This document shows, piece by piece, positions 1,956-24,038 of a stretch of DNA of 24,038 bases; within the stretch, counting starts at the first letter, position 1; every line of letters starts with the position of its first letter. Under the pieces are notes generated by a model that searched no databases, had not been told where the DNA came from, and was given only the letters and a program-made list of their open reading frames with translations. Source of the DNA: a virus; the IMG/VR virus record IMGVR_UViG_3300025151_008489, positions 1 through 24,038 of that record, one strand, 5' to 3'. The translations under genes were made by a program, and so were the position numbers.

Positions 1956-2897
1956 ATGAAAGCAGAAAATTATATTTTAGGTGCAGGACCTGCAGGTCTT
2001 ATTGCAGCGTATTACTTTGATGATTTTAAGGTAATAGACAAAAAGCCTTTAGGTCAATTAAACTTGCCTTTTATACCAGGACCAAGATTGTTACAAGCAA
2101 CAGAAAATATGAAAGAGTTTGTAAAATCTATATGTCCTGACTTAGAATTAAAGGAAGAGATTGCCGTAATAGGTTTTCATGAAGACGGAAATGTTACTGA
2201 CACTCCTTCTAAAAACTTCAAAGCAAATTATGCAATGAAAACTAGAGGTAAGAATAAATCCGAATCAAGTTTTATGTCAGAAGGTATGACAGAAATCAAA
2301 CATATAGAAATTGCAGACTATGGAGAAGATAGCTACAAATTTTTATTTGAAAGTTTATTAAAAATAATTAAAGACAGAGGTCAGTTAATAGAAACAAGCG
2401 TAGAAAATATCGATGTATTTGGAAGAAAAATGCATCTTGAAAACGGAGATGTGTTGGAGTACTGGAACTTAATATCTACACTTAATGTTAATCTGTTAAA
2501 AAAATTATGTCCTAATATGAAAGACATGCCTCATGACCTATCAACGTCACCTAAATGTTTTTACAAGGCAGAATATAAAGATGACATATCAGTTATGATG
2601 TCTGAAAAAACACACCCATCTCTTTGGTTTGATTATGTATATTCTATAGGTACTGATTGGACACGTCAAACATTTTTTAGAGATTATATTGTATATGAAT
2701 CAGTAAATCCTATAGAAGGTACTCATATTCAAGGCAATAAAATACTTATGAAGTTTGAAAATCTTCCAATACAAATAAAAGAAAGTTTAAGATTTGAAAC
2801 AATAGATGGAATCAAAATGCTAGGAAGATTTGCAGAATGGGACCATCAAGTAAAAGCAAATGAAGTTTTAGATAAAGTGAAGTCATGGATAAATTAA
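1956..2897 (+). CDS. FAD/NAD(P)-binding oxidoreductase, UDP-galactopyranose-mutase/amine-oxidase-like
   Basis: Probably a soluble flavoprotein; the substrate is unknown. Residues 5-25 form a Rossmann nucleotide-binding motif (LGAGPAGLIAAYYF), with an acidic residue at the end of the second strand (VIDKK). The C-terminus, GRFAEWDHQVKANEVL, looks like the closing FAD-binding segment of UDP-galactopyranose mutase and flavin amine oxidases (typically GRY/F-A-x-W followed by a helix). At 313 residues it is shorter than most UGM enzymes, and the middle region is not recognised. It is the first gene after putative promoter copy A and overlaps the next gene by 13 bases, so it is co-expressed with nucleotide-metabolism genes and an RmlD-like reductase. 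Nucleotide-sugar chemistry and redox support for a nucleotide enzyme are both possible. The FAD-binding assignment is fairly firm; the reaction is not. Confidence 0.7.
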   Translation: MKAENYILGAGPAGLIAAYYFDDFKVIDKKPLGQLNLPFIPGPRLLQATENMKEFVKSICPDLELKEEIAVIGFHEDGNVTDTPSKNFKANYAMKTRGKNKSESSFMSEGMTEIKHIEIADYGEDSYKFLFESLLKIIKDRGQLIETSVENIDVFGRKMHLENGDVLEYWNLISTLNVNLLKKLCPNMKDMPHDLSTSPKCFYKAEYKDDISVMMSEKTHPSLWFDYVYSIGTDWTRQTFFRDYIVYESVNPIEGTHIQGNKILMKFENLPIQIKESLRFETIDGIKMLGRFAEWDHQVKANEVLDKVKSWIN

Positions 2898-3844
2898 AAG
2901 AAATATTTGAAATACAAAAACAGTTTACCGAAAAGTTTTTCGAAAAACAAGGTTTAACCGTAAATGAAGTCCTTAATAACAAGGAGCTTAAAGTAAAGTG
3001 GAACAAAGAGTACGTTCTGGCGCTGTCTAAAGAGGTGTATGAAGTATTAGATGAGATTGATTGGAAAATGCATACATCTAAAAATACTGAAGATATAAAT
3101 GACAATGTATTAGAAGAATGCGTTGACGTATTAAAATATCTATTTGGAATTGTACAGCTTAATGGATTTGACGTAAATGATTTATATGAAAAATTTGTAG
3201 ATAAATCAAAAGTTGTGGAAGCTAAATTTAATCAGGAAGAAGTAATGGCTAAAATTAAAGCTTCAGATAAGAAAATAGCTTTTATAGATATCGATGGTGT
3301 TCTTGCAGACTGGCCAGGTGGATTTTTGAAATGGGCAGGATATGATTCTCTTGCTCAATTCAAAAGTCAGGTTAATAAAAAGGAACAATACAGAATAAAA
3401 TCTGAATATAGAACATGTGGCATAAAAGGCAAGCTTGATGTATTACACGGCGCAAGGACTTTTATGCAAGAGACTTGTAAAAATTATAATGTTGTATTAC
3501 TTACAGCAAGACCATATAAAAAATACTTTAGAATATATTCTGATACTCTAAGATGGTTAAAGGAAAATGACATTTGCTATGATGCAATTGTATTTGATGA
3601 AGAAAAAGAAAAATATATTATCAATAATTTCGAACCTGAACAAGTTGCATTTTGTTTAGATGATGATATTGGCAATGCAAATAAATTACACGATAGTGGA
3701 TTTAAGGTTTTCTTAAAAAAGAATCTAGGTTTATATACACATGAAACCTTGAATAAAAAATTAAATGAAGGCATACAAATAATTAACGGAAATATATTGG
3801 AGATAGTTTACAATGCAGATACGAATAAAGAAATTACACGATAA
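2885..3844 (+). CDS. Fusion: all-alpha dUTPase/dCTPase-like domain plus HAD 5'(3')-deoxyribonucleotidase-like domain
   Basis: Two catalytic modules in 319 residues. Residues 1-120 are helical and match the dimeric dUTPase/dCTPase (MazG-related) pattern: a start of the IFEIQKQF type, then E50-X2-E53 with D56/E57, then E77/E78 and D81, the usual Mg-binding acidic set. These enzymes cleave dUTP or dCTP to the monophosphate and pyrophosphate. Residues 129-285 are a HAD phosphatase: D135-I-D137-G (nucleophile and acid), T207 in LLTARP, and D259-D260-D261, in the style of 5'(3')-deoxyribonucleotidases. Together the protein could take a dNTP to the monophosphate and then to the nucleoside, or clear unwanted nucleotides. 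It overlaps both neighbours, and the next gene is a second, unrelated dUTPase, so this one may act mainly on dCTP. The domains are clear from motifs; substrate specificity is inferred. Confidence 0.8.
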   Translation: MDKLKEIFEIQKQFTEKFFEKQGLTVNEVLNNKELKVKWNKEYVLALSKEVYEVLDEIDWKMHTSKNTEDINDNVLEECVDVLKYLFGIVQLNGFDVNDLYEKFVDKSKVVEAKFNQEEVMAKIKASDKKIAFIDIDGVLADWPGGFLKWAGYDSLAQFKSQVNKKEQYRIKSEYRTCGIKGKLDVLHGARTFMQETCKNYNVVLLTARPYKKYFRIYSDTLRWLKENDICYDAIVFDEEKEKYIINNFEPEQVAFCLDDDIGNANKLHDSGFKVFLKKNLGLYTHETLNKKLNEGIQIINGNILEIVYNADTNKEITR

Positions 3845-4235
3845 AGCAGTAATACCATCATACGCTAAACAAGGCGATGCAGGTATGGATTTAACATGTG
3901 TAGGTTGGAAAACAACAGAAACTTATGTAGAATATGATACAGGATTGGCTATGGAAATACCTGAAGGCCATGTCGGATTTTTATTTCCGAGAAGCTCTGT
4001 ATCGAAAACAAATTTGGTGCTTGCAAATTGTGTAGGCGTTGTTGACTCTGGATATAGAGGTCCAGTAAAACTTAGATTTAAGGAATTAAATGGTCCTATT
4101 GGTGGAAGATATAAAGAAGGTGATAGGGTAGGCCAGCTTATTATAATGCCTGTACCTAACTTTAATTGTGTAGAGGTAGAAGAATTAACAGAAACAAGTA
4201 GAGGAGAGGGAGGCTTTGGCTCAACAGGAAATTAA
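3813..4235 (+). CDS. dut: Trimeric dUTPase (dUTP diphosphatase)
   Basis: Hydrolyses dUTP to dUMP and pyrophosphate, keeping uracil out of DNA and feeding dTMP synthesis. All five family motifs are present in 140 residues, the normal length: motif I GDAGMDL (21-27), motif II PRSSVSK (59-65), motif III GVVDSGYRG (75-83) with catalytic Asp78 and Tyr81, motif IV GDRVGQLI (103-110), and the glycine-rich motif V RGEGGFGSTG (130-139) that closes over the substrate. It starts inside the previous gene (32-base overlap) with GGAG at 3799-3802. Its last codons contain a purine-rich stretch that probably serves as the ribosome site for the next gene. No defect is visible. Confidence 0.97.
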   Translation: MQIRIKKLHDKAVIPSYAKQGDAGMDLTCVGWKTTETYVEYDTGLAMEIPEGHVGFLFPRSSVSKTNLVLANCVGVVDSGYRGPVKLRFKELNGPIGGRYKEGDRVGQLIIMPVPNFNCVEVEELTETSRGEGGFGSTGN

Positions 4236-4608
4236 AATATCGTTTACAAATATAGTAAAATTAACACTTTGTTTTTATGAGAACCCTGCTGCAAAGCAAG
4301 AAATAACATTTTGGGAAGGTCTTGTAAAAGATAAAATAAAAACAAAATCTAAAGTCAATGATATATGGAGCTACCATCTTAATGACGAAGAAGGTGATGA
4401 AGTTGTCGTGTGTATTCCAATAGAATTGACAGAAGAATTTAGAGATATATCTAATGTATCTAGACTTGCTGACAGTGAATTTGATAGGCACCAAGTTACC
4501 GGCAAGTTAAAATATGAAAAAACATTGATTTTTGGTAGAGTAGAATCTGCACAACTACAATTTATTACAGTAATGATGAACCTAATGAGTAAAGGAAAAT
4601 GGCGCTAG
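4216..4608 (+). CDS. Hypothetical protein, TTG start (130 aa)
   Basis: No recognisable family. The protein is soluble and charged, with no membrane segment or signal peptide; its most distinctive patch is DEVVVCIPIEL near the middle, and it ends in a basic KGKWR. The start appears to be TTG at 4216, 20 bases inside the dUTPase gene, because no in-frame ATG occurs before residues late in the protein. GAGGAG at 4201-4206 lies nine bases upstream and is part of the dUTPase motif V codons. It overlaps the kinase gene by 10 bases, so all these genes are likely translationally coupled. The position between a dUTPase and a nucleotide kinase suggests a role in nucleotide metabolism, but nothing in the sequence proves it. 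Confidence 0.75.
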   Translation: MAQQEIKISFTNIVKLTLCFYENPAAKQEITFWEGLVKDKIKTKSKVNDIWSYHLNDEEGDEVVVCIPIELTEEFRDISNVSRLADSEFDRHQVTGKLKYEKTLIFGRVESAQLQFITVMMNLMSKGKWR

Positions 4609-5027
4609 TAAGAATATTACATATTGATGGTCCGGATAAGACAGGAAAAGATTCTATAAGAAGGCAAGTTGTTAAAAATGGAAAAGGTAATACATTGGTT
4701 TATATTAGGTCTTTTTTATCACAAATAGTATATTCAAGGTTATACAATAGAAAAATAAATGAAAAAGTATTTTTTATGTCATGGGCAGAAGCAATTGTTC
4801 GAGGTGAAGAATTTTATTTTATAGACTGTTCTTATGAATTGGTAAAAGAAAGATTTATAAAACACGATGAAAAAGATTTGGACATCAAAGATTGGAAAGA
4901 GCATAGACGAGTTTTTTATGATGTACTTAAAGAAGCTGAAGAACAATATGATATAGAAGTAATTAGAGTAGATACTACAAAAGATACAATAAAACAATCA
5001 GCAAATAAAATACAAAGGGAATTATGA
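4599..5027 (+). CDS. P-loop nucleotide kinase, dNMP/thymidylate-kinase-like
   Basis: Likely phosphorylates a deoxynucleoside monophosphate using ATP. Residues 5-19 (RILHIDGPDKTGKDS) form a beta strand and Walker A loop, G11-X4-G16-K17, followed by D18-S19 in place of the usual S/T. The GKD[S/T] variant is also found in the T4 gp1 family of deoxynucleotide kinases. The segment FYFIDCSYELVKERF may be the strand and helix before the lid. At 142 residues it is much shorter than cellular thymidylate kinase (about 210), so the lid or base-binding region is reduced. It overlaps both neighbours (10 and 4 bases). Beside two dUTPase-family genes and a ThyA-like gene, a dNMP kinase role is plausible, possibly for an unusual nucleotide. 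The fold is fairly sure; the base specificity is unknown. Confidence 0.75.
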   Translation: MALVRILHIDGPDKTGKDSIRRQVVKNGKGNTLVYIRSFLSQIVYSRLYNRKINEKVFFMSWAEAIVRGEEFYFIDCSYELVKERFIKHDEKDLDIKDWKEHRRVFYDVLKEAEEQYDIEVIRVDTTKDTIKQSANKIQREL

Positions 5028-6088
5028 GAAAATTATTTATCACAGGCGAAAGTGGTATGCTAGCCACTTCAATAATAAAGGCATTAGAACAATCAGGTCA
5101 AGATAGATTTGAAGTTATGGATAACTCAGACATTGCAGAATATACAAATGAATTTAGTTATCTGAATGGAAAGCTTGTAAAGGCTAAGGAGGTAGATGTT
5201 ACAGATAGAGATGCTCTAAATAAAGTACAAGACAGGTTAACAAAAGATGATATTATTATACATACAGCTGCCTATGTAAATACAGATAAATGTGATGACT
5301 TTTCTTACGAGGCAGTCAACTCAAATATTATTAGCACACAATATTTAATTGATGTAGCAAATGCAGTAGGCTGTAAGATGATTTATTTTTCTACAACAGC
5401 TGTGTTTGACCCTGATGAGTATATGAAAGATAATGGTGTGTTTGACGAAACTGCTTCAATAGACCCTAAAACACTTTATGGTCTTTCTAAATATTCTGGA
5501 GAGCTAGCCACAAAACAATCTATAGATTTTGAAAAATGTATGGTAATAAAACCTGTGTTTATTTATGGCGATGCACCATTTGATAACTCTTCTATGATTA
5601 GAAAAATTACAGAAAAAGTTTATTGCGATATGAATAACATACAATATACTCTGTCACCTCTTAACAAAGATGGAAAGCTTGATGTGCTATTGAATCCCGG
5701 TATTGAAAAAGACTATATGAGATATGAATATTTTGCAGATATGTTTTTAGAATTACTTCTTATGGATAATGGTTGGGGCTATGATTTTATTATAAGTAAA
5801 GATGCACCTATACCGTTTGCAGAATATTTACATCTTATAGAAGAAGTTACAGGCTGCGATGATTTATCAAAGCATATAAACGTAATACCTGAAGGTGATT
5901 ATCTTGAAAGACACAATGGAATATCAAAGAATTTTTATAAATTATTCCAACATTATCAGTTACCGGTATCGGCATATAACAATAAAGAAGGTATAGAAAA
6001 AACATATAAATCAATAGTCGAGCATTATGAAGGAAATAGTAAAGAAAATAATGAGTCTGTTAGAAAAACAAGACTCTTCCACGTATAG
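5024..6088 (+). CDS. NAD(P)-dependent short-chain (extended) reductase, RmlD/epimerase family
   Basis: An extended short-chain dehydrogenase acting on a nucleotide-linked sugar or similar substrate. Residues 4-13 (LFITGESGML) are the TGxxGxL NAD(P)-binding motif, DVTDRDAL (58-65) follows the usual pattern, and HTAAYVNTDKCD (80-91) resembles RmlD (dTDP-4-dehydrorhamnose reductase), which typically reads AAYTxVDxxE here. Thr124/Thr125 with Y152-X3-K156 form the catalytic set. At 354 residues it is longer than RmlD (about 300) and has an insertion after residue 190. The start uses an ATGA overlap with the kinase gene, and the 3' end overlaps the ThyA-like gene. It lies far from the glycosyltransferase cluster, so it may supply a sugar nucleotide to it or act on an operon-specific substrate. 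The family is confident; the substrate is not. Confidence 0.85.
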   Translation: MRKLFITGESGMLATSIIKALEQSGQDRFEVMDNSDIAEYTNEFSYLNGKLVKAKEVDVTDRDALNKVQDRLTKDDIIIHTAAYVNTDKCDDFSYEAVNSNIISTQYLIDVANAVGCKMIYFSTTAVFDPDEYMKDNGVFDETASIDPKTLYGLSKYSGELATKQSIDFEKCMVIKPVFIYGDAPFDNSSMIRKITEKVYCDMNNIQYTLSPLNKDGKLDVLLNPGIEKDYMRYEYFADMFLELLLMDNGWGYDFIISKDAPIPFAEYLHLIEEVTGCDDLSKHINVIPEGDYLERHNGISKNFYKLFQHYQLPVSAYNNKEGIEKTYKSIVEHYEGNSKENNESVRKTRLFHV

Positions 6089-6533
6089 AGAAATATATAA
6101 TTTCAACTATGATATTGAGGTTATAACCGAATATATGAATACACCAATACCTCCAGCACTTGAGGCAGATGAAACCGAAAGAAAAGAGCTTATTAAAGGT
6201 ATGGTTAGCCTATGTATTGAAAAAGGTATTGAATCTAGACAATGTGTGCTTCATAAAAAATATCAAGATGACGATACACTTGCAGCATGTCTTTCTACAA
6301 TACAGGCAATATCTAGAAACAATAAAATAGATTTACATATATTTGTAAGAAGTCAAAATTTCGATAAGAATTTTTCTTATGATAATCAAACATATATGAT
6401 GATTATGTGTGCATTGCTAATACAATTTCCTGAAAACGATTTTGGTAAAATATATGTTCATATTACATCACTACATAGATTTATGGAAGATGGCGAAAAA
6501 CCTTTAACATATCTTGTTAATAACTTTTGCTAA
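6051..6533 (+). CDS. Small thymidylate synthase/dCMP hydroxymethylase superfamily protein
   Basis: The C-terminal two thirds match the catalytic half of ThyA-type enzymes. Numbering from this ATG, LAAC-L-S-T-I-Q places Cys80 where thymidylate synthase has its nucleophile, with RS at 100-101 exactly 20 residues later, as in E. coli ThyA (C146, R166-S167). The position equal to ThyA Asn177 is Asp111 (SYDN), and SLHRF at 140-144 fits the H207-X-Y209 region. In the T4 dCMP hydroxymethylase this Asn is also Asp, which favours a cytosine nucleotide. The protein is only 160 residues against about 260 for ThyA, so the N-terminal part is reduced. A start at 6027 would add eight residues, but 6051 has purines just upstream (AAAGA) and a smaller overlap. 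It is the last gene of the operon. Membership of the superfamily is reasonably clear; the reaction is an inference. Confidence 0.7.
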   Translation: MSLLEKQDSSTYREIYNFNYDIEVITEYMNTPIPPALEADETERKELIKGMVSLCIEKGIESRQCVLHKKYQDDDTLAACLSTIQAISRNNKIDLHIFVRSQNFDKNFSYDNQTYMMIMCALLIQFPENDFGKIYVHITSLHRFMEDGEKPLTYLVNNFC

Positions 6534-10005: not shown

Positions 10006-10818
10006 ATGGAAAAATTAAGTTATGACGTGGTTGAAAACCTGAGAATTGTAATGGGAACATTACCTGAGGAACAACCGTTATTAAAAACAGAATTCAAATT
10101 ATTACAAGATGAGGTTGAGGTTACATTAGAAGACCACATGTCAAACCCTTATAAGTCTATGTTTGTGACTAGTACTTCTACTTGGGGTGATAATGAATTT
10201 AAGAGAAAATGGCCAATTACATCTCCTGAAGGAAAGCTTGAAGTTGTAAAGGCAGTACTAACTCATAATACTTTACCTCAGGCACGAGAGATGGTACAGT
10301 TTATATTTAGAGTTAGAGGTGTACCAAGATGGTTATTTGACTACCACACACAAATACCTTTCACAAGTTTTATGAGTATAGGATGTCGAGATAATAATAA
10401 GTCAGATGTCGATATTGTTACATTAGATGAGTTACCTGAGAAACATAAAAATGTAATGAAGCGACTTAAATCTCTTTATTCATCTGCTCTAAAAACAGAC
10501 CAAGCATCATGGCAATCAGCAAGGTCTTTTTTACCTCAAAGCTATCAACACTCATATCATTTTGGCCAAAATCTATTGTCACTTGTAAGTATGAGAGGGT
10601 TTAACGCATCAGGAAAATTTGATAATGTTGACAATAAAGAATGGGCAATGAGTGAATTATATAAAAAAGTTGTTGATGCAGTTGCTGAAAAATTTCCTTT
10701 GATAGGAGAGTATCTTAGTGTAATACATAATGATACAGAAGAAGTTTTGGAATATATTAAAAATATAAAATACGAAAATTTAAGCGAATCAGATAAAAAG
10801 TTGTTTACAGATGAATAA
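10006..10818 (+). CDS. Divergent flavin-dependent thymidylate synthase (ThyX)-like protein
   Basis: Resembles ThyX, which methylates dUMP using FAD and folate, but with an altered signature. Residues 83-128 follow the ThyX pattern: THNTLPQAREMVQFIFRVRGVPRW fits the segment leading to the conserved GVSR, and R108, S121 and R128 align with conserved ThyX positions. The RHR of the family's RHRX7S signature is replaced by Q116-I117-P118, and its Ser by Gly126. ARSFLP (172-177), N189 and R197 then match the C-terminal ARxxLP...N...R region. At 270 residues it is a little longer than typical ThyX (about 220-250). Loss of RHR may mean a different substrate, dependence on a partner, or no synthase activity. 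The next gene overlaps by 8 bases. I am moderately confident of the superfamily and not of the reaction. Confidence 0.6.
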   Translation: MEKLSYDVVENLRIVMGTLPEEQPLLKTEFKLLQDEVEVTLEDHMSNPYKSMFVTSTSTWGDNEFKRKWPITSPEGKLEVVKAVLTHNTLPQAREMVQFIFRVRGVPRWLFDYHTQIPFTSFMSIGCRDNNKSDVDIVTLDELPEKHKNVMKRLKSLYSSALKTDQASWQSARSFLPQSYQHSYHFGQNLLSLVSMRGFNASGKFDNVDNKEWAMSELYKKVVDAVAEKFPLIGEYLSVIHNDTEEVLEYIKNIKYENLSESDKKLFTDE

Positions 10819-11523
10819 AGTTAATATAAAAAAAGGTATAGAATGTTTGGATGTAGAAATACTTAGTTGGAATCCAGATTCTCAAATGATAACATATAAA
10901 ATTACAGGAACACCTGTATGTCAATATGACCAGCATTCAAGAGCTAGAGTAGGTATAAAATTTAAGGATTATAAAGTTAGTGAAAAGCCTAACTATGTTG
11001 TATATACACAGGTTTGGGAAACAATGGAGAAAGACCCTTCATTCAAGAAAGAGGTTATTGATACATTACAAGAACTTGAAGATTTAAGAAATGAAAATGA
11101 TGAGGTGTTTTCTCAAATAGAAATGTCATCACTTAATTTAATGTCAAGAGAATGTAGCTACGTTGTAGAACAAAATATAGGTTCATTACGAGGACAGATG
11201 GCAAGACGATTGCAGTTTTGTGAAGAGGAATTTATTGTAGGCTTGCACTGGCTATTAAGACAGAAAATGATAGACGCAGGAATTGATTTGGCAAATGGAT
11301 TCAAGCCTATGTGTGACGTAACAAAGAAATGCGAATATGCAAAAGCTGATTATCTATCAAATGCTTTTGGTTGCTTATTTGCAGGCTGTGGAAGATGGAA
11401 ATCACATACAGAATTTGCATCGTTTAATCAGTCTTGTACTACACCAGAATTAGTAAAAGAACAAACAGGCGTTACCTGTACAAAATCAGAATATGAATTA
11501 CAATTAGAAAAGGAGAGTATTTA

Positions 11524-11524
<1 letters not shown>
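10811..11524 (+). CDS. Cys-rich protein of unknown function, partner of the ThyX-like gene (237 aa)
   Basis: Not recognised. The N-terminal 60 residues look beta-rich (DVEILSWNPDSQMITYKITG), then come helices with many charged residues (80-155). The C-terminal third is Cys-rich: C168-X5-C174-X13-C188-X4-C193, then C209 and C223, with the striking NAFGCLFAGCGRWKSHTEF segment. This could hold zinc or an iron-sulfur cluster; neither is shown. Ten Cys in 237 residues is high for this window. The gene overlaps the ThyX-like gene by 8 bases and the GroES gene by 1 base (TAATG), so it is translated together with both. The overlap with a ThyX-like protein that lacks RHR suggests a two-subunit enzyme, which is only inference. 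Confidence 0.75.
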
Positions 11525-13438
<1,914 letters not shown>

Positions 13439-15304: not shown

Positions 15305-15511
15305 ATGGCAAAGCAAAAATTAACATCTGTAAAGGTTAACGAGGAGTCTTGGAATAATTTCAAGAAAATGTCGATAGATGAAAAAATTACATTTAGACAA
15401 TTGGTTGATATATCAATCGAAGAGTTTATTAACAATAAGAGTTTTAGAAACACAATAAAAGAAAAGGTTATAGAAAATGGCAAAAAAGAAAATACTATTA
15501 CTATCAGATGA
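15305..15511 (+). CDS. Ribbon-helix-helix (Arc/CopG-type) DNA-binding protein (68 aa)
   Basis: Likely a small dimeric transcription regulator. Residues 5-11 (KLTSVKV) form the DNA-reading beta strand, NEESWNNFKKMSIDEK the first helix, and TFRQLVDISIEEFINNKS the second; this is the usual strand-helix-helix pattern with the conserved turn before the second helix. The C-terminal tail is Lys/Glu-rich. TGGAG lies nine bases before the ATG. The gene overlaps the following glycosyltransferase by 35 bases, and a palindrome is just upstream, so it may control the glycosyltransferase cluster. Fold and length are convincing for 68 residues; the target is inferred. Confidence 0.75.
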   Translation: MAKQKLTSVKVNEESWNNFKKMSIDEKITFRQLVDISIEEFINNKSFRNTIKEKVIENGKKENTITIR

Positions 15512-16880
15512 TTTAAGAATTCATTCTGGTGTCGGAACAATGTCAAAATCTTTTGTACTAGGTACAGTTAAACAATTTGACTGGGTACAAATGGCAGGTG
15601 CAATCAAACATCCTGAAAAAGGTAAGGTTGCAGATTTATCTGAAGATACAAATAAAATATTAGGAATCGATGATGCTTATATAAAACTTTATCCTGTAGA
15701 CGGATATGGAAATCAGGCTATATTAAGAGAAGTTATGGCAATAGAAAAGCCTGATGGTATTATGCATTTTACTGACCCAAGATTCTGGGATTGGCTATAT
15801 GCAATGGAGCACGAAATTAGACAGAATATTCCTATCATGTATTATAATATATGGGATGACCTTCCTTTCCCACATTGGAATGAAAATGCTTATGAATCTT
15901 GCGATGGCTTGATGGCTATTTCAAAGCAGACATATAATATCAACAAACATGTTTGCCAAAGAAAACCAAGAGTAGAAGGAAAAGACCTGTTTTATGTGCA
16001 ACATGGTATAAATGAAAATGTATTTTTCCCTATATTAGGAGAAGATGCTGAATTTCAAAAATTTAAGAATGAAGTACTACATGGAAAAACTTACGACTTT
16101 ATAGCGTTTTTCAATAGTAGGAATATAAGACGTAAAGGTACCTCTGATTTGCTATCTGCATTTGGAAAATTCAATAGAGAAATGACAGAAGAGCAGGCAT
16201 CGAAAACAGCAATCATATTACATACAGACCCAGTTGACAGTAATGGTACTGATTTACCTGTATTGGTACAAAAGCTATATCCTAAAATGAATGTTATATT
16301 TAGTACGCAGAAATTGCAACCGGTTCAAATGAATTGGTTATATAATATTGCAGATGTAGTTTGTAATCCATCTTCAGCAGAAGGCTTTGGTTTAAGTCAC
16401 ATGGAAGCTATGATGGCTGCAAGACCTACAATTACAACTGTTGTTGGAGGTTTACAAGACCAATTAGGATTCAAAGTTGATGGCGAGGAATTATCTGTTA
16501 AACACTTCACAGCAGAGATTCCAAGTAATAGTACAGGTGAAATATCAAAAGAGCATGGTGAATGGACGTATCCATTGTGGCCGAACCAAAGTTTACAAGG
16601 CTCACCTCCAACTCCATATATCTATGATAGTAGACCTGAAATAAATGATATTGCATCAGGATTAAAATATTGGTATGGACAATCAAAAATGGAAAGAACT
16701 AGAAAAGGAATTCTAGGAAGGAATTGGGCTATCGAAAATAAATTTACAGAAGATGGAATGAATGAGGCTATGTTAAATGCAATTCAAACTACGTTTGATA
16801 ATTTCAAACCTAAAGCAAATTATGAACTTATAGATTTAGACGAAACAAATAAAGTCTATCCAACAGGAGTATTAAGATAA
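15477..16880 (+). CDS. Glycosyltransferase, GT-B fold (GT4-like), first of cluster
   Basis: Transfers a sugar from a nucleotide donor to an unknown acceptor. The N-terminus KKILLLSDDLRIHSGVGTMS (3-22) is a GT-B opening strand and glycine loop. The C-terminal donor site has NSRNIRRKGTSDLLSAF near 215-231 (where GT4 enzymes carry GR-x-x-x-KG) and the EX7E motif E302-GFGLSHM-E310, followed by AARPTITT. The length (467 aa) is normal. It overlaps the regulator gene by 35 bases and the next glycosyltransferase by one base. No signal peptide or membrane span is seen, so it is cytosolic. The acceptor could be a phage structural protein, a host-like polysaccharide, or DNA; the sequence does not say. 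Confidence 0.88.
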   Translation: MAKKKILLLSDDLRIHSGVGTMSKSFVLGTVKQFDWVQMAGAIKHPEKGKVADLSEDTNKILGIDDAYIKLYPVDGYGNQAILREVMAIEKPDGIMHFTDPRFWDWLYAMEHEIRQNIPIMYYNIWDDLPFPHWNENAYESCDGLMAISKQTYNINKHVCQRKPRVEGKDLFYVQHGINENVFFPILGEDAEFQKFKNEVLHGKTYDFIAFFNSRNIRRKGTSDLLSAFGKFNREMTEEQASKTAIILHTDPVDSNGTDLPVLVQKLYPKMNVIFSTQKLQPVQMNWLYNIADVVCNPSSAEGFGLSHMEAMMAARPTITTVVGGLQDQLGFKVDGEELSVKHFTAEIPSNSTGEISKEHGEWTYPLWPNQSLQGSPPTPYIYDSRPEINDIASGLKYWYGQSKMERTRKGILGRNWAIENKFTEDGMNEAMLNAIQTTFDNFKPKANYELIDLDETNKVYPTGVLR

Positions 16881-18178
16881 TGAAACCAAGATTAGTTATA
16901 AGCTGCCCATCAACAAGCAGAAGTGGTTATGGAGACCATAGTAGAGATTTAATTCGAAGTTTAATTGATATGAATAAATTTGATATTCATGTTTTTGACC
17001 AAATTTGGGGTAGTTGCCCTAAAGACGCATTAGGCGAAGATGATAAAGATATAAGCTCTTTGATTATAAAAAATCCTCAACAATTTTTGGCTGAAAAACA
17101 GCCAGATATATGGATTCAAGTTACAGTACCAAATGAATTCCAACCTGTAGGAAAATACAATATAGGAATTACGGCAGGAATAGAAACAACTCTTTGCGAT
17201 GCAACTTGGATTCAAGGCTGCAATAGAATGGATAAAGTTATAGTACCTTCAGAGCATGCAAAATATGTATTTCAAACTGCGACATATAAAGCAATTAACC
17301 CGCAAACAGGACAGGAAGATTCAAATGCACCTGAATTAAAATTAGAAGTACCTGTAGAGGTTTTATTTGAAGGTTTAGATATGGACTTTTTCAAAAAGAC
17401 TAAAGAAATACCTAGTACAATAAAATCAACTTTAGATTCTATAAAAGAAGATTTTTGCTTTTTATTCTGTGGCCACTGGCTAAATGGTGTTATGGGACAG
17501 GATAGAAAAGATGTAGGTATGACAATTAGAGTTTTCTTAGAAACATTCAAAGGGAAATCAAAAAGAAACATGCCAGCTTTAATACTTAAAACTTCTTCTG
17601 CAGGTTTTTCAATTGGAGAAAGAGAAGAAATAATTAAGAAAATAAAAGCCGTAAGAAGTTATGTAGAGCATCAAGGTGATTTACCTAGTATATATTTCTT
17701 GCATGGTGACTTATCAAAAGAAGAGCTTAATGGATTATATAACCATCCTAAAGTAAAAGCTATGGTATCGTTTACAAAAGGTGAAGGATTTGGTAGACCT
17801 TTATTAGAATATAGCGTTACAGGTAAACCTACAATAGCTTCAAATTGGTCTGGTCATATAGACTTTTTATCTGCTTATGGTATAATGCTTCCAGGTAAAT
17901 TAAACAAGGTTCATGAATCAGTTGTTTGGGATAAAGTTATATTAAAAGATTCTGAGTGGTTTACTGTAGACTACGGATATGCTTCAGGTATATTAAAAGA
18001 TGTACATAAGCAGTATAAAAAATATCATGAAAAATCGAGAAAACAAACGCAATATGTAAAAGATAATTTTACACTGAAAGAAATGACAAAGAAGTTTGAA
18101 GAAATAATGGATAATTCTGTTTTACCTTCATTTGACGTTAAACTTCCAGCAATTGAGGAGATGCAAACTTATGAATAA
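16880..18178 (+). CDS. Glycosyltransferase, GT-B fold (GT4-like), second of cluster
   Basis: Related in layout to the previous enzyme but clearly different in sequence. The opening RLVISCPSTSRSGYGDHSRD (4-23) gives a GT-B strand plus glycine loop with a His. The donor-site motif is E302-GFGRPLL-E310 in FTKGEGFGRPLLEYSVTGKP, followed by the SGHIDF segment. FLFCGHWLNGV, around residue 195, is the start of the C-terminal Rossmann domain. At 432 residues the length is normal. It starts at the TAATG junction with the first glycosyltransferase, and its last codons overlap the next gene by 8 bases. Two successive GT4-like enzymes suggest that they add consecutive sugars. Substrates are unknown. Confidence 0.87.
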   Translation: MKPRLVISCPSTSRSGYGDHSRDLIRSLIDMNKFDIHVFDQIWGSCPKDALGEDDKDISSLIIKNPQQFLAEKQPDIWIQVTVPNEFQPVGKYNIGITAGIETTLCDATWIQGCNRMDKVIVPSEHAKYVFQTATYKAINPQTGQEDSNAPELKLEVPVEVLFEGLDMDFFKKTKEIPSTIKSTLDSIKEDFCFLFCGHWLNGVMGQDRKDVGMTIRVFLETFKGKSKRNMPALILKTSSAGFSIGEREEIIKKIKAVRSYVEHQGDLPSIYFLHGDLSKEELNGLYNHPKVKAMVSFTKGEGFGRPLLEYSVTGKPTIASNWSGHIDFLSAYGIMLPGKLNKVHESVVWDKVILKDSEWFTVDYGYASGILKDVHKQYKKYHEKSRKQTQYVKDNFTLKEMTKKFEEIMDNSVLPSFDVKLPAIEEMQTYE

Positions 18179-21947: not shown

Positions 21948-22762
21948 AAAAATTAAATGTACCTTTTTATGTTTCTACAAACAATAAGCATATGAGATGT
22001 CTTCAGGTTTTTGTAGAATTATTTAATAAATTTACAGATAATAGCGAGCTTATTATATTAGGATATGACAAGCCAGACTTTGAGCTTACAGAGAATTGTA
22101 AATTTGAGTCGATGGGGACACAAGGACCTGTTGAAGAATGGTCAACTGATTTAAGAAAATATTTTATAAAAAATGCTCCCGAATATTTTATATATGGCAC
22201 AGAAGACACATTCTTTTATAAGGAAATGAACCACGATTATATAAACTATTTGATAAAGGTTGTAAAACTAAACCATCAAATTGGCAAGGTTCAGCTATGT
22301 GATGTAGCAGAAGAGAATGGATTTGCAATAGAAGAAAATCGCCATTACAAATCTAGAATATTAACAACTGTAAATGTCCCAGAATTAAATATCGACTTCG
22401 ATATGCACGTACTAATGAAATCTAATTATTCAATAAACTGTCAACTTTCGCTATGGAATAAAGAATTTTTATTAAAATATTTGGAAGATGGTTATTCACC
22501 TTGGGATTTTGAAATAAAAGGCTCAATTGCAGCCTATGATGAGACCGAATGGTATTCAATAATACTTGATAGGCAGTTTGGTATATTTAAGAAAGAAGGT
22601 TTTTGTGGAAGCTTAGATGTCAAAGAGCAATGGACATATAAAGAACATTGGTTTGATAGCTTAGAAAACGAATGGCTTAAGACACATATAAAAGAATGGG
22701 GAAATCCTGTGATGGCAGGACCAAATGGGCAATTTGGAACATCGAAAATTAGCGAAAGGTAA
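21944..22762 (+). CDS. Putative glycosyltransferase-like protein (272 aa)
   Basis: Likely a cytosolic sugar-transferring enzyme, assigned from pattern and context. The N-terminus NVPFYVSTNNKHMRCLQVFV and the ELIILGYDKPDF strand suggest a GT-A-like fold. TEDTFFYKEM around 86-95 could be the metal-binding acidic turn (E87-D88). SLWNKEFLLKYLEDGYSPWD with a following F-E (169-190) matches a motif seen in uncharacterised glycosyltransferase-like proteins, where a Trp-containing loop lies by the donor. No membrane segments. ATGA overlap with the large multidomain gene, then one base to the nucleotidyltransferase gene. Specificity cannot be predicted, and the GT-A assignment is tentative. Confidence 0.65.
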   Translation: MKKLNVPFYVSTNNKHMRCLQVFVELFNKFTDNSELIILGYDKPDFELTENCKFESMGTQGPVEEWSTDLRKYFIKNAPEYFIYGTEDTFFYKEMNHDYINYLIKVVKLNHQIGKVQLCDVAEENGFAIEENRHYKSRILTTVNVPELNIDFDMHVLMKSNYSINCQLSLWNKEFLLKYLEDGYSPWDFEIKGSIAAYDETEWYSIILDRQFGIFKKEGFCGSLDVKEQWTYKEHWFDSLENEWLKTHIKEWGNPVMAGPNGQFGTSKISER

Positions 22763-22763
22763 T

Positions 22764-23426
22764 ATGAAAAATATAGTTATATTAGCAGCAGGTCCACCAA
22801 AACCAAATAGAAACAGACATTTAGAATTATATAAAGGTCGAAAAATTATTGATATAGTAATTGAAAGATGTACAATTGAAAACACAAAGTTATATGCTGT
22901 TGTTGATGAGAGAAATATCGAACTAATAAACCATATAAATGACAGAGTAAAATTACTTTATCCTAAAGATGGTAAAATATATAGTACATTTGAATCTGCT
23001 CTTTCTGTAGAAGGAGACACAATTATGGTTGTCGGAGACCTTGTAGGGTTAAAAGAAGGTGATATAAATAGATTTGTAGAATCTAAATACAAATCAGCAA
23101 CTTGTATATATAAGCAGGCATGGGGTTTGCATATAAGGTCTAAATATCCTAATCTAATAAGACGAGGTGATTGCGGTGATTGTATATCAATGATAGGTCA
23201 AGAACATAAAAAAGAATTTTTAGGTGAAAATAATCAAATTATGTATAAATGGCTATTTCGCCAATTTTATCCAGAAAAAGAAATAAACCACGAAATTTAC
23301 AATGATGTAGGAACATTTATGTCATACGCATTTTTTGAAAAAATATGGTCGAATCCATTATGTAGTGAATTCGGTGACAAAGGCTCTGTATATTTTGAAC
23401 ACAAAGTATATGCAGATAACGACTAA
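22764..23426 (+). CDS. NTP transferase-like protein (nucleotidyltransferase), sugar or phosphonate cytidylyltransferase type
   Basis: Member of the MobA/sugar nucleotidyltransferase fold, which activates a sugar-1-phosphate or similar alcohol with CTP or another NTP. The N-terminal KNIVILAAGPPKPNRNRHLE carries the LAAG loop that binds the nucleotide. VVGDLVGL near 90 gives the acidic metal-binding turn. It is 220 residues, normal for a single-domain enzyme. The start at 22764 has AAAGG just before it and is one base after the previous stop; the in-frame ATG 39 bases earlier lies inside the previous gene. The next gene encodes a PEP-mutase-like enzyme, and in Treponema denticola a cytidylyltransferase is fused to PEP mutase. 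A CMP-phosphonate or CDP-sugar product is therefore possible; the substrate is inferred. Confidence 0.75.
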   Translation: MKNIVILAAGPPKPNRNRHLELYKGRKIIDIVIERCTIENTKLYAVVDERNIELINHINDRVKLLYPKDGKIYSTFESALSVEGDTIMVVGDLVGLKEGDINRFVESKYKSATCIYKQAWGLHIRSKYPNLIRRGDCGDCISMIGQEHKKEFLGENNQIMYKWLFRQFYPEKEINHEIYNDVGTFMSYAFFEKIWSNPLCSEFGDKGSVYFEHKVYADND

Positions 23427-23436
23427 AATATTTTTA

Positions 23437-23461
23437 TATGTCGTAAAAATTTATTATATTA
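23437..23461 (+). promoter_or_regulatory. Copy E of the repeated 25-bp intergenic element, putative phage promoter
   Basis: TATGTCGTAAAAATT, TAT and TATATTA align to the other copies. It lies in the 57-base gap after the nucleotidyltransferase gene, preceded by a T-run. The next ATG is 22 bases downstream, with AGAGGA at 23471-23476. The PEP-mutase-like gene therefore seems to start its own transcript. Confidence 0.65.
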
Positions 23462-23483
23462 AATAAAAACAGAGGAATTAAAG

Positions 23484-24038
23484 ATGAAGACGATTAAAGA
23501 GTTATTAAACGACAGTACTAAAACTAATATAGTTATTGGTGCAAACAATGCTATGATAGCTGAAATAGCTTTACGAGCTGGTTATGATGGTGTTTGGGTA
23601 TCTAGTTTCGAATCACATGCTTGGAATCTATTACCAGATGCAAACATTCTAAACACTGCAGATTATTTTGACACAATCAGTAAAATTAGTGACAGAATAA
23701 GTATACCTATTTTAGTTGATGCAGATGAAGGCGGACCAAGTTCTATCAATACAATTAGAATGGTTAGAGAATATGAAAAGGCAGGGGCTTCTGCAATGTG
23801 TTTTGAAGATAATCCTTCTCCAAAGAGATGTTCTTTTTATGGAATGAAGCAGAGTTTAGAGACACCAGAGATTATGTGCGGTAAAATTAAAGCTGCAGTA
23901 GAAAAAAGATTGGATAAAGATTTTGCTATAATTACTAGAACAGAAGCCTTAATTCAAGGACATGGACATGATGTTGCAATGGAAAGAGCTAGAATGTATA
24001 ACGATGCTGGCTGTGATGCTTTTTTGATTCATAGTAAA
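23484..24038 (+). CDS. PEP mutase/isocitrate-lyase superfamily enzyme, 3'-truncated
   Basis: A TIM-barrel enzyme of the family that interconverts PEP and phosphonopyruvate or cleaves C-C bonds. 185 codons are open to the right edge. Compared with mussel PEP mutase the following are kept: the Mg-linked Asp (D52, in LPDAN), D79-A-D81, E108-D109, K114, S117, R152 in TRTEAL and H183 in LIHSK. The signature EDKX5NS reads EDN-X5-CS, however: the Asn is C116, and a Cys at this point is the catalytic residue in isocitrate and 2-methylisocitrate lyases (KRCGH type). The IHSK segment favours a phosphono substrate, and the Cys favours a lyase, so the reaction is uncertain. AGAGGA lies seven bases before the ATG. 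It follows an NTP transferase and glycosyltransferases, which suggests a phosphonate-bearing glycan. Confidence 0.85.
   Translation, partial: MKTIKELLNDSTKTNIVIGANNAMIAEIALRAGYDGVWVSSFESHAWNLLPDANILNTADYFDTISKISDRISIPILVDADEGGPSSINTIRMVREYEKAGASAMCFEDNPSPKRCSFYGMKQSLETPEIMCGKIKAAVEKRLDKDFAIITRTEALIQGHGHDVAMERARMYNDAGCDAFLIHSK

Follow-up and report, generated by a model that had tools for sequence, protein, structure and literature searches.

The window analyzed here, the whole 24,038-nt stretch of the virus record IMGVR_UViG_3300025151_008489, contains an operon of overlapping genes that probably encodes a pathway for substituting cytosine at the level of the nucleotide pool in a T4-like myophage; in it, dCMP would be modified at C5 for DNA (dCTP -> dCMP -> X-dCMP -> X-dCDP). 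Its key component is a small protein of the thymidylate synthase (ThyA) superfamily. The pathway is supported by the invariant Asp of this protein at the position of ThyA Asn177, by a separate thymidylate synthase system (ThyX), by conserved synteny that extends to about 20 further contigs, and by fusions of the kinase and ThyA-like domains. The window is assigned to T4-like myophages since portal, terminase and baseplate proteins of the T4 type are encoded by a near-identical longer relative, the 115-kb contig of locus L001. As for the specific reaction, we tentatively propose folate-independent hydroxylation of dCMP to 5-hydroxy-dCMP, as in phages RB69 and HY126, on the basis of the residue pattern.

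Gene content of the module and the proposed pathway

The results reported below on fold, residues, conserved gene set, fusions and purifying selection were obtained computationally, from ratios of non-synonymous to synonymous substitutions (dN/dS), profile alignment (hhalign), AlphaFold models compared by Foldseek, and Pfam, PHROG and TIGRFAM scans. The genes of the module, all overlapping, and the two ThyX-like genes are as follows.

1956..2897, plus strand: FADox, a FAD-binding oxidoreductase of 313 amino acids resembling UDP-galactopyranose mutase (UGM) (AlphaFold/Foldseek, motifs); first gene of the module
2885..3844, plus strand: MazG/all-alpha dUTPase domain (amino acids 3-126) fused to an NT5C-type HAD phosphatase domain (amino acids ~120-280); candidate dCTP/dUTP pyrophosphohydrolase
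3813..4235, plus strand: trimeric dUTPase (Pfam dUTPase, E 2.1e-19; PHROG, E 7e-46)
4216..4608, plus strand: conserved protein of 130 amino acids with a TTG start; no convincing family match in Pfam or PHROG; kept in the module, including L064
4599..5027, plus strand: P-loop nucleoside monophosphate kinase, thymidylate kinase (TMPK)-like, with the motif GPDKTGKDS; candidate X-dCMP kinase
5024..6088, plus strand: RmlD-type short-chain reductase (SDR), accessory (Pfam RmlD_sub_bind, E 1.9e-25; TIGR01214, E 1.1e-24 but below its cut-off)
6027..6533, plus strand: stripped-down ThyA-superfamily protein of 168 amino acids; candidate dCMP C5-modifying enzyme (PHROG, hhalign, AlphaFold/Foldseek, alignments)
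10006..10818, plus strand: ThyX-like protein A (Pfam Thy1, E 1.5e-6), which keeps FMSIGCRDNN and is without the RxR of the signature
10811..11524, plus strand: ThyX-like protein B, which keeps QHSRARVG and the RGQMARRL region and is without FMSIG (ThyX profile on orthologues, E 7e-8 to 2e-6)

An overlapping operon with an all-alpha dUTPase/dCTPase-like domain, a GKDS-type P-loop kinase and a ThyA-superfamily protein had been described in the initial annotation, and both the open reading frames (ORFs) and their families were confirmed. The module starts one gene earlier than was set there, with FADox, which overlaps the MazG gene and had not been mentioned; the SDR had been given no role.

The scheme, in which we infer the substrate (dCMP), the reaction and its cofactor, the role of FADox and the entry of the product into DNA, would be as follows. 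Hydrolysis of dCTP, and probably also of dUTP, by the MazG-type domain would give the monophosphate. The small protein of ThyA fold would then bind dCMP, with Asp119 selecting cytosine and Cys88 adding to C6 and thus activating C5, where the substituent would then be installed. The kinase would phosphorylate X-dCMP towards the triphosphate for the phage DnaE polymerase, and dTMP would be supplied separately by ThyX.

The ThyA-like protein

The assignment of the 168-amino-acid protein to the ThyA superfamily rests on PHROG (thymidylate synthase, E 2.2e-4), profile alignment and structure, because Pfam and PDB sequence searches with this protein alone gave chance matches only. Profile alignment of its family yields E 1.1e-7 with the T4-type family (T4 gp42) and E 9e-8 with SPO1 gp29. 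Foldseek finds 315 PDB chains at E<=0.001, and the 50 best listed all belong to the ThyA superfamily. The best match is 9iqu, the dCMP hydroxylase AfhB of phage HY126 with dCMP (E 3.3e-7, query TM-score (TMq) 0.64), and the first seven also include T4 dCMP hydroxymethylase, human thymidylate synthase and 9iqc (a flavin monooxygenase with dCMP and FAD). The structure comparison with gp42 and ThyA suggested in the initial annotation thus places the protein in the ThyA fold.

The sequence from position 6027 is conserved in relatives, which favours the start at this position and a length of 168 rather than 160 residues. In this numbering, the residues previously called Cys80 and Asp111 are Cys88 and Asp119. 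In the register to ThyA, Cys88 corresponds to Cys146, Arg108-Ser109 to Arg166-Ser167, Asp119 to Asn177, and His150 to His207. Asp119 follows Arg108 by 11 residues without gaps, as in the ThyA pair Arg166-Asn177 and the T4 pair Arg168-Asp179. All relatives examined, the most distant having about 28% identity, share the Asp at this position that had already been noticed in the window protein; in the kinase/ThyA-like fusions one residue is deleted ahead of it. According to the alignments, the Asn that ThyA requires for dUMP is replaced by Asp in all members. Cys88, Arg108-Ser109 and His150 are kept by every member of alignment A3 and also by members more distant than these. The ThyA-like ORF is under purifying selection, with dN/dS outside the overlap of 0.19 and 0.08 in comparisons with two relatives.

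Recurrence of the module and gene fusions

Besides the window, the module is seen in about 20 other contigs. Pattern and profile scans detected the ThyA-like family in 13 other viral contigs and in two contigs of an archaeal-labelled metagenome-assembled genome, and several distant viral contigs with the module were found via FADox. FADox is necessarily present in contigs that were retrieved with it as bait, so that the independent linkage test is provided by those found with the ThyA-like protein; FADox is linked to the module as tightly as the ThyA-like gene. FADox, MazG, ThyX, a DNA polymerase and the ThyA-like gene are kept throughout the module loci, ThyX standing beside the module in loci with coverage. 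The kinase is present, as far as seen, in all of them except the L043 contig, while the SDR occurs in only some.

In a distant clade (L060, L061, L066) a single ORF encodes both the kinase and the ThyA-like domain, the fused kinase part being homologous to the kinase domain of the window. The kinase/ThyA-like version of L067 is more divergent, and support for its ThyA part is only weak (E 5e-4). L043 has FADox fused to MazG in a single ORF, whose neighbours are ThyX, a ThyA-like ORF of 155 amino acids and a PolB-like gene. Of all the observations, these fusions argue most strongly for a link between dNTP hydrolysis, C5 modification and rephosphorylation. Searches by tblastn with the ThyA-like protein and with FADox against 50,697 phage records gave zero matches, and there is no close match to the small ThyA-like enzyme in any cultured phage of this collection.

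The same distant clade (L060, L061, L066) has DnaE split into two ORFs (427 and 748 amino acids); in the window it is a single gene encoding 1117 amino acids.

Hydroxylation or hydroxymethylation

The protein is considerably shorter than the reference enzymes (168 vs 238-264 amino acids), and the central ThyA segment with Trp80 and Tyr94 (the YG/NYGW motif) is absent from it. In ThyA, Asp169 and Gly173 are folate-contact residues. The corresponding region of the window protein reads Arg108-Ser109-Gln110-Asn111, with Asn at the position of Asp169, and Asn115 stands at the position of Gly173. At positions 169/173/177 the folate-type references (E. coli ThyA, T4 gp42, KpV477, Aes002, MilA) have D/G/N or D/G/D, RB69 ORF048, to which the chain in 9iqc is nearly identical, has N/V/D, and the window clade and L064 have N/N/D. 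Relatives with the same spacing have N/N, H/N or D/K at the first two of these positions. The Mosigvirus enzyme of the thymidylate synthase superfamily makes 5-hydroxy-dCMP, not 5-hydroxymethyl-dCMP, and RB69-type phages arabinosylate 5-hydroxy-dC (PMC13390438). Because the folate half and the two folate-contact residues are missing or changed, folate-independent hydroxylation at C5 is favoured. That the combination of RSQN, a non-Gly residue at Arg+7 and Asp at Arg+11 might define hydroxylase activity is suggested by two hydroxylase sequences.

Several observations weigh against this reading or against the pathway as a whole. The profile similarity of the ThyA-like family to the RB69 hydroxylase (E 4.5e-6) is no closer than to the T4 and SPO1 hydroxymethylases, and the Foldseek scores do not separate hydroxylase from hydroxymethylase structures. 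Only 10 sequences went into the AlphaFold model (predicted local distance difference test, pLDDT, 78.8; predicted TM-score, pTM, 0.78). No counterpart of ThyA Glu58 was recognized in the ThyA-like protein, and the distant members L043 and L067 keep Asp at the position of Asp169. Finally, L058 keeps the kinase, the SDR, DnaE and ThyX, with no ThyA-like gene between the SDR and DnaE. Sequence similarity was also considered as an arbiter between T4 and RB69 chemistry and failed, the profile scores not favouring RB69 over T4.

The initial annotation had proposed a pathway parallel to that of T4, in which the protein, despite its small size, is a true dCMP hydroxymethylase like T4 gp42, producing 5-hydroxymethyl-dCMP with methylene-tetrahydrofolate. 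The general logic of a dCTPase-like, a dCMP-modifying and a kinase step is supported, while the specific attribution to a gp42-type enzyme is not. The same Asp at Arg+11, the same catalytic Cys and His, the T4-like pathway neighbours and a profile similarity to the T4-type and SPO1 enzymes slightly above that to RB69 agree with hydroxymethylation. Still, the NYGW-motif segment of the T4 enzyme (246 amino acids) is absent from the window protein, and both Asp169 and Gly173, kept in the folate-type references examined, are replaced by Asn. At these positions the protein matches the RB69/HY126 hydroxylase, from which its best structural match also comes; we consider T4-type chemistry rather unlikely.

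FADox, the SDR and other readings of the module

The AlphaFold model of FADox (pLDDT 86.4, pTM 0.85) has UGM as the best Foldseek matches (E 4.8e-12, TMq 0.67-0.71), and its motifs WTRQT and LGRFAEWDH resemble PYTRIIEHK and GGRLAEYKYYD of E. coli Glf (TR and GR, respectively). Neither the hhalign comparison of FADox with E. coli Glf nor the PDB profile search (E 0.07-0.3) gave a significant match. The SDR is RmlD-like (hhalign to E. coli RfbD, E 6e-10) and dispensable, none being seen in L060, L061, L066 and L067. FADox may be a maker of a furanosyl nucleotide for glycosylation of the modified base, or a flavin partner of the ThyA-like protein.

The first of these possibilities extends the hydroxylation reading: FADox and the SDR would make a nucleotide sugar (e.g. 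a furanose) for hydroxylated cytosine, comparable to arabinose in RB69, and the ThyA-like protein would make the acceptor. The UGM fold with the TR and GR motifs, the RmlD-like SDR, the arabinosylation of 5-hydroxy-dC in RB69-type phages, and the homologues of GT4a and GT4b that G016 shares with the window are consistent with it. However, the loci without the SDR, the lack of GT1/GT2 matches in G018, and the position of the glycosyltransferases of the window lineage, which adjoin a phosphonate/glycan cluster, make such a role doubtful.

According to the second possibility, the ThyA-like protein lacking the folate half would modify dCMP together with FADox, the flavin giving the oxygen or the one-carbon unit that folate gives in ThyA. 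In accordance with this, wherever the contig of a ThyA-like locus extends far enough upstream, FADox adjoins MazG, across lineages, and the two are fused in L043; moreover, the contig of L064 has both FADox and the ThyA-like gene and no GT1/GT2 matches, so that a glycan role of FADox is not obvious in that contig. Such a two-component system seems improbable, since the nearest fold of FADox is that of UGM, a sugar enzyme, and L058 has FADox with no ThyA-like gene adjoining. If correct, it would mean a cytosine derivative for DNA produced by a folate-free route not described before, in a phage group without a close relative among the cultured phage records searched.

Least probable is ordinary dTTP supply by the operon, with the ThyA-like protein either acting as a minimal thymidylate synthase or being a remnant without activity: superfamily membership and the nearby TMPK-like kinase and dUTPases would fit, but the invariant Asp at the uracil-specificity residue, the separate ThyX system, the loss of the Trp80/Tyr94 segment, and the purifying selection with invariant catalytic residues all speak against it.

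Other genes of the module and its surroundings

The MazG-HAD protein matches Pfam dUTPase_2 (E 3.3e-6; 27.9 bits, cut-off 22.9), MazG (E 6.9e-5; 23.5 bits, cut-off 22) and NT5C (E 7.5e-4), as well as the PHROG NTP pyrophosphohydrolase (E 9e-10), and is present in all module loci with coverage. With the single gp56 sequence as the target, hhalign detects no relation between it and T4 gp56; gene context is what suggests a dCTPase activity. The trimeric dUTPase, present in the window clade, had been taken to free the all-alpha enzyme for dCTP. This argument is weakened by six module loci (L028, L058, L060, L061, L064, L067) in which no trimeric dUTPase was seen beside the module, and in view of such loci, dCTP and dUTP may both be substrates of the MazG protein.

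The kinase matches Pfam Thymidylate_kin (E 3.5e-5, just under its cut-off) and PHROG (E 1.4e-6). In L028 a protein of the uracil-DNA glycosylase (UDG) superfamily (2889-3314, E 7e-14) adjoins the kinase, and in L064 a UDG-like domain (E 1e-4, just under the cut-off) is fused to it (10091-10939).

ThyX-like proteins A and B have complementary sets of motifs, and together possibly form a heteromeric ThyX. Paired complementary genes of this kind occur in the window (10006-11524), in L064 (12364-13892) and in L061 (14763-16290), while L028 and L067 have a single ThyX with both halves. The ThyX genes of the window are followed by phage GroES and GroEL genes (11524-13438), with homologues in the same place in G016.

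The link between downstream glycosyltransferases and the modified base, suggested in the initial annotation, appears weak. A decorating role of the nearby glycosyltransferases is not supported by the 90-kb contig of L064, which carries the module and has no GT1/GT2-type matches. Two GT4-type glycosyltransferases of the window (15477-18178) have strong homologues in G016 (577 and 457 bits). The phosphoenolpyruvate (PEP) mutase and other glycan genes are not shared with G016, and the GT4 pair are candidates for a core decorating function. The PEP mutase gene lies at 22725-24038 of the window (TIGR02320, E 3.9e-42, below its cut-off). In the contig of L001 (L042, G001 106205-109331) it is followed by genes for the N and C halves of a thiamine pyrophosphate enzyme, a class V aminotransferase and a cytidylyltransferase, apparently a complete pathway of the aminoethylphosphonate type in a phage. 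In a search of the same contig for an EndoII-like nuclease of host DNA, the one GIY-YIG protein tested gave matches to homing endonucleases and to a family that bears the name NAD synthetase.

Comparison with known systems

If the proposed pathway is correct, DNA with modified cytosine would occur in widespread uncultured phages outside the cultured T4-like phages. The enzyme would be about 30% smaller than known dCMP enzymes, so that a ThyA fold without its folate half would still be active on dCMP; together with the kinase to which it is fused in one clade, it would offer a compact system for study. Moreover, the pattern Asn/non-Gly/Asp versus Asp/Gly/Asp would provide a sequence criterion separating hydroxylases from hydroxymethylases among phage proteins annotated as thymidylate synthases.

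The pathway resembles T4 gp42/gp56/gp1 in its three-step logic and in the Asn-to-Asp change. It differs from it in the loss of the folate-contact residues and the central segment, in the TMPK-like kinase, in the MazG protein, which carries a HAD domain and shows no specific relation to gp56, and in the supply of dTMP by ThyX. SPO1 gp29, a dUMP hydroxymethylase, shows a profile similarity as high as T4 gp42, but has the uracil-type Asn and retains both folate residues, Asp and Gly. The CMP hydroxymethylase MilA (5jnh) shares the Asp at the position of Asn177 and the cytosine substrate; in contrast, it acts on a ribonucleotide, keeps the folate Asp/Gly and exceeds 300 amino acids. FADox has the fold of UGM and its active-site motifs TR and GR, while being shorter (313 vs 367-510 amino acids), having about 10% identity in the structural alignment, and residing in a nucleotide operon, fused to MazG in one virus.

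The flavin-dependent dCMP 5-hydroxylases RB69 ORF048 and HY126 AfhB (PDB 9iqc, 9ir2, 9iqu) share with the window protein the ThyA fold, the Cys nucleophile, RSQN with Asn at the position of Asp169, a non-Gly residue at Gly173 and Asp at Asn177, and likewise come from T4-like phages with a TMPK-like gene nearby. They are longer (238 amino acids), and their profile similarity to the window family is weak (E 4.5e-6); RB69 keeps the Glu58-like and YG segments, and none of its annotated sugar-isomerase neighbours was seen in the module. In function, the enzyme may have its nearest precedent not in gp42 but in the dCMP 5-hydroxylase described recently.

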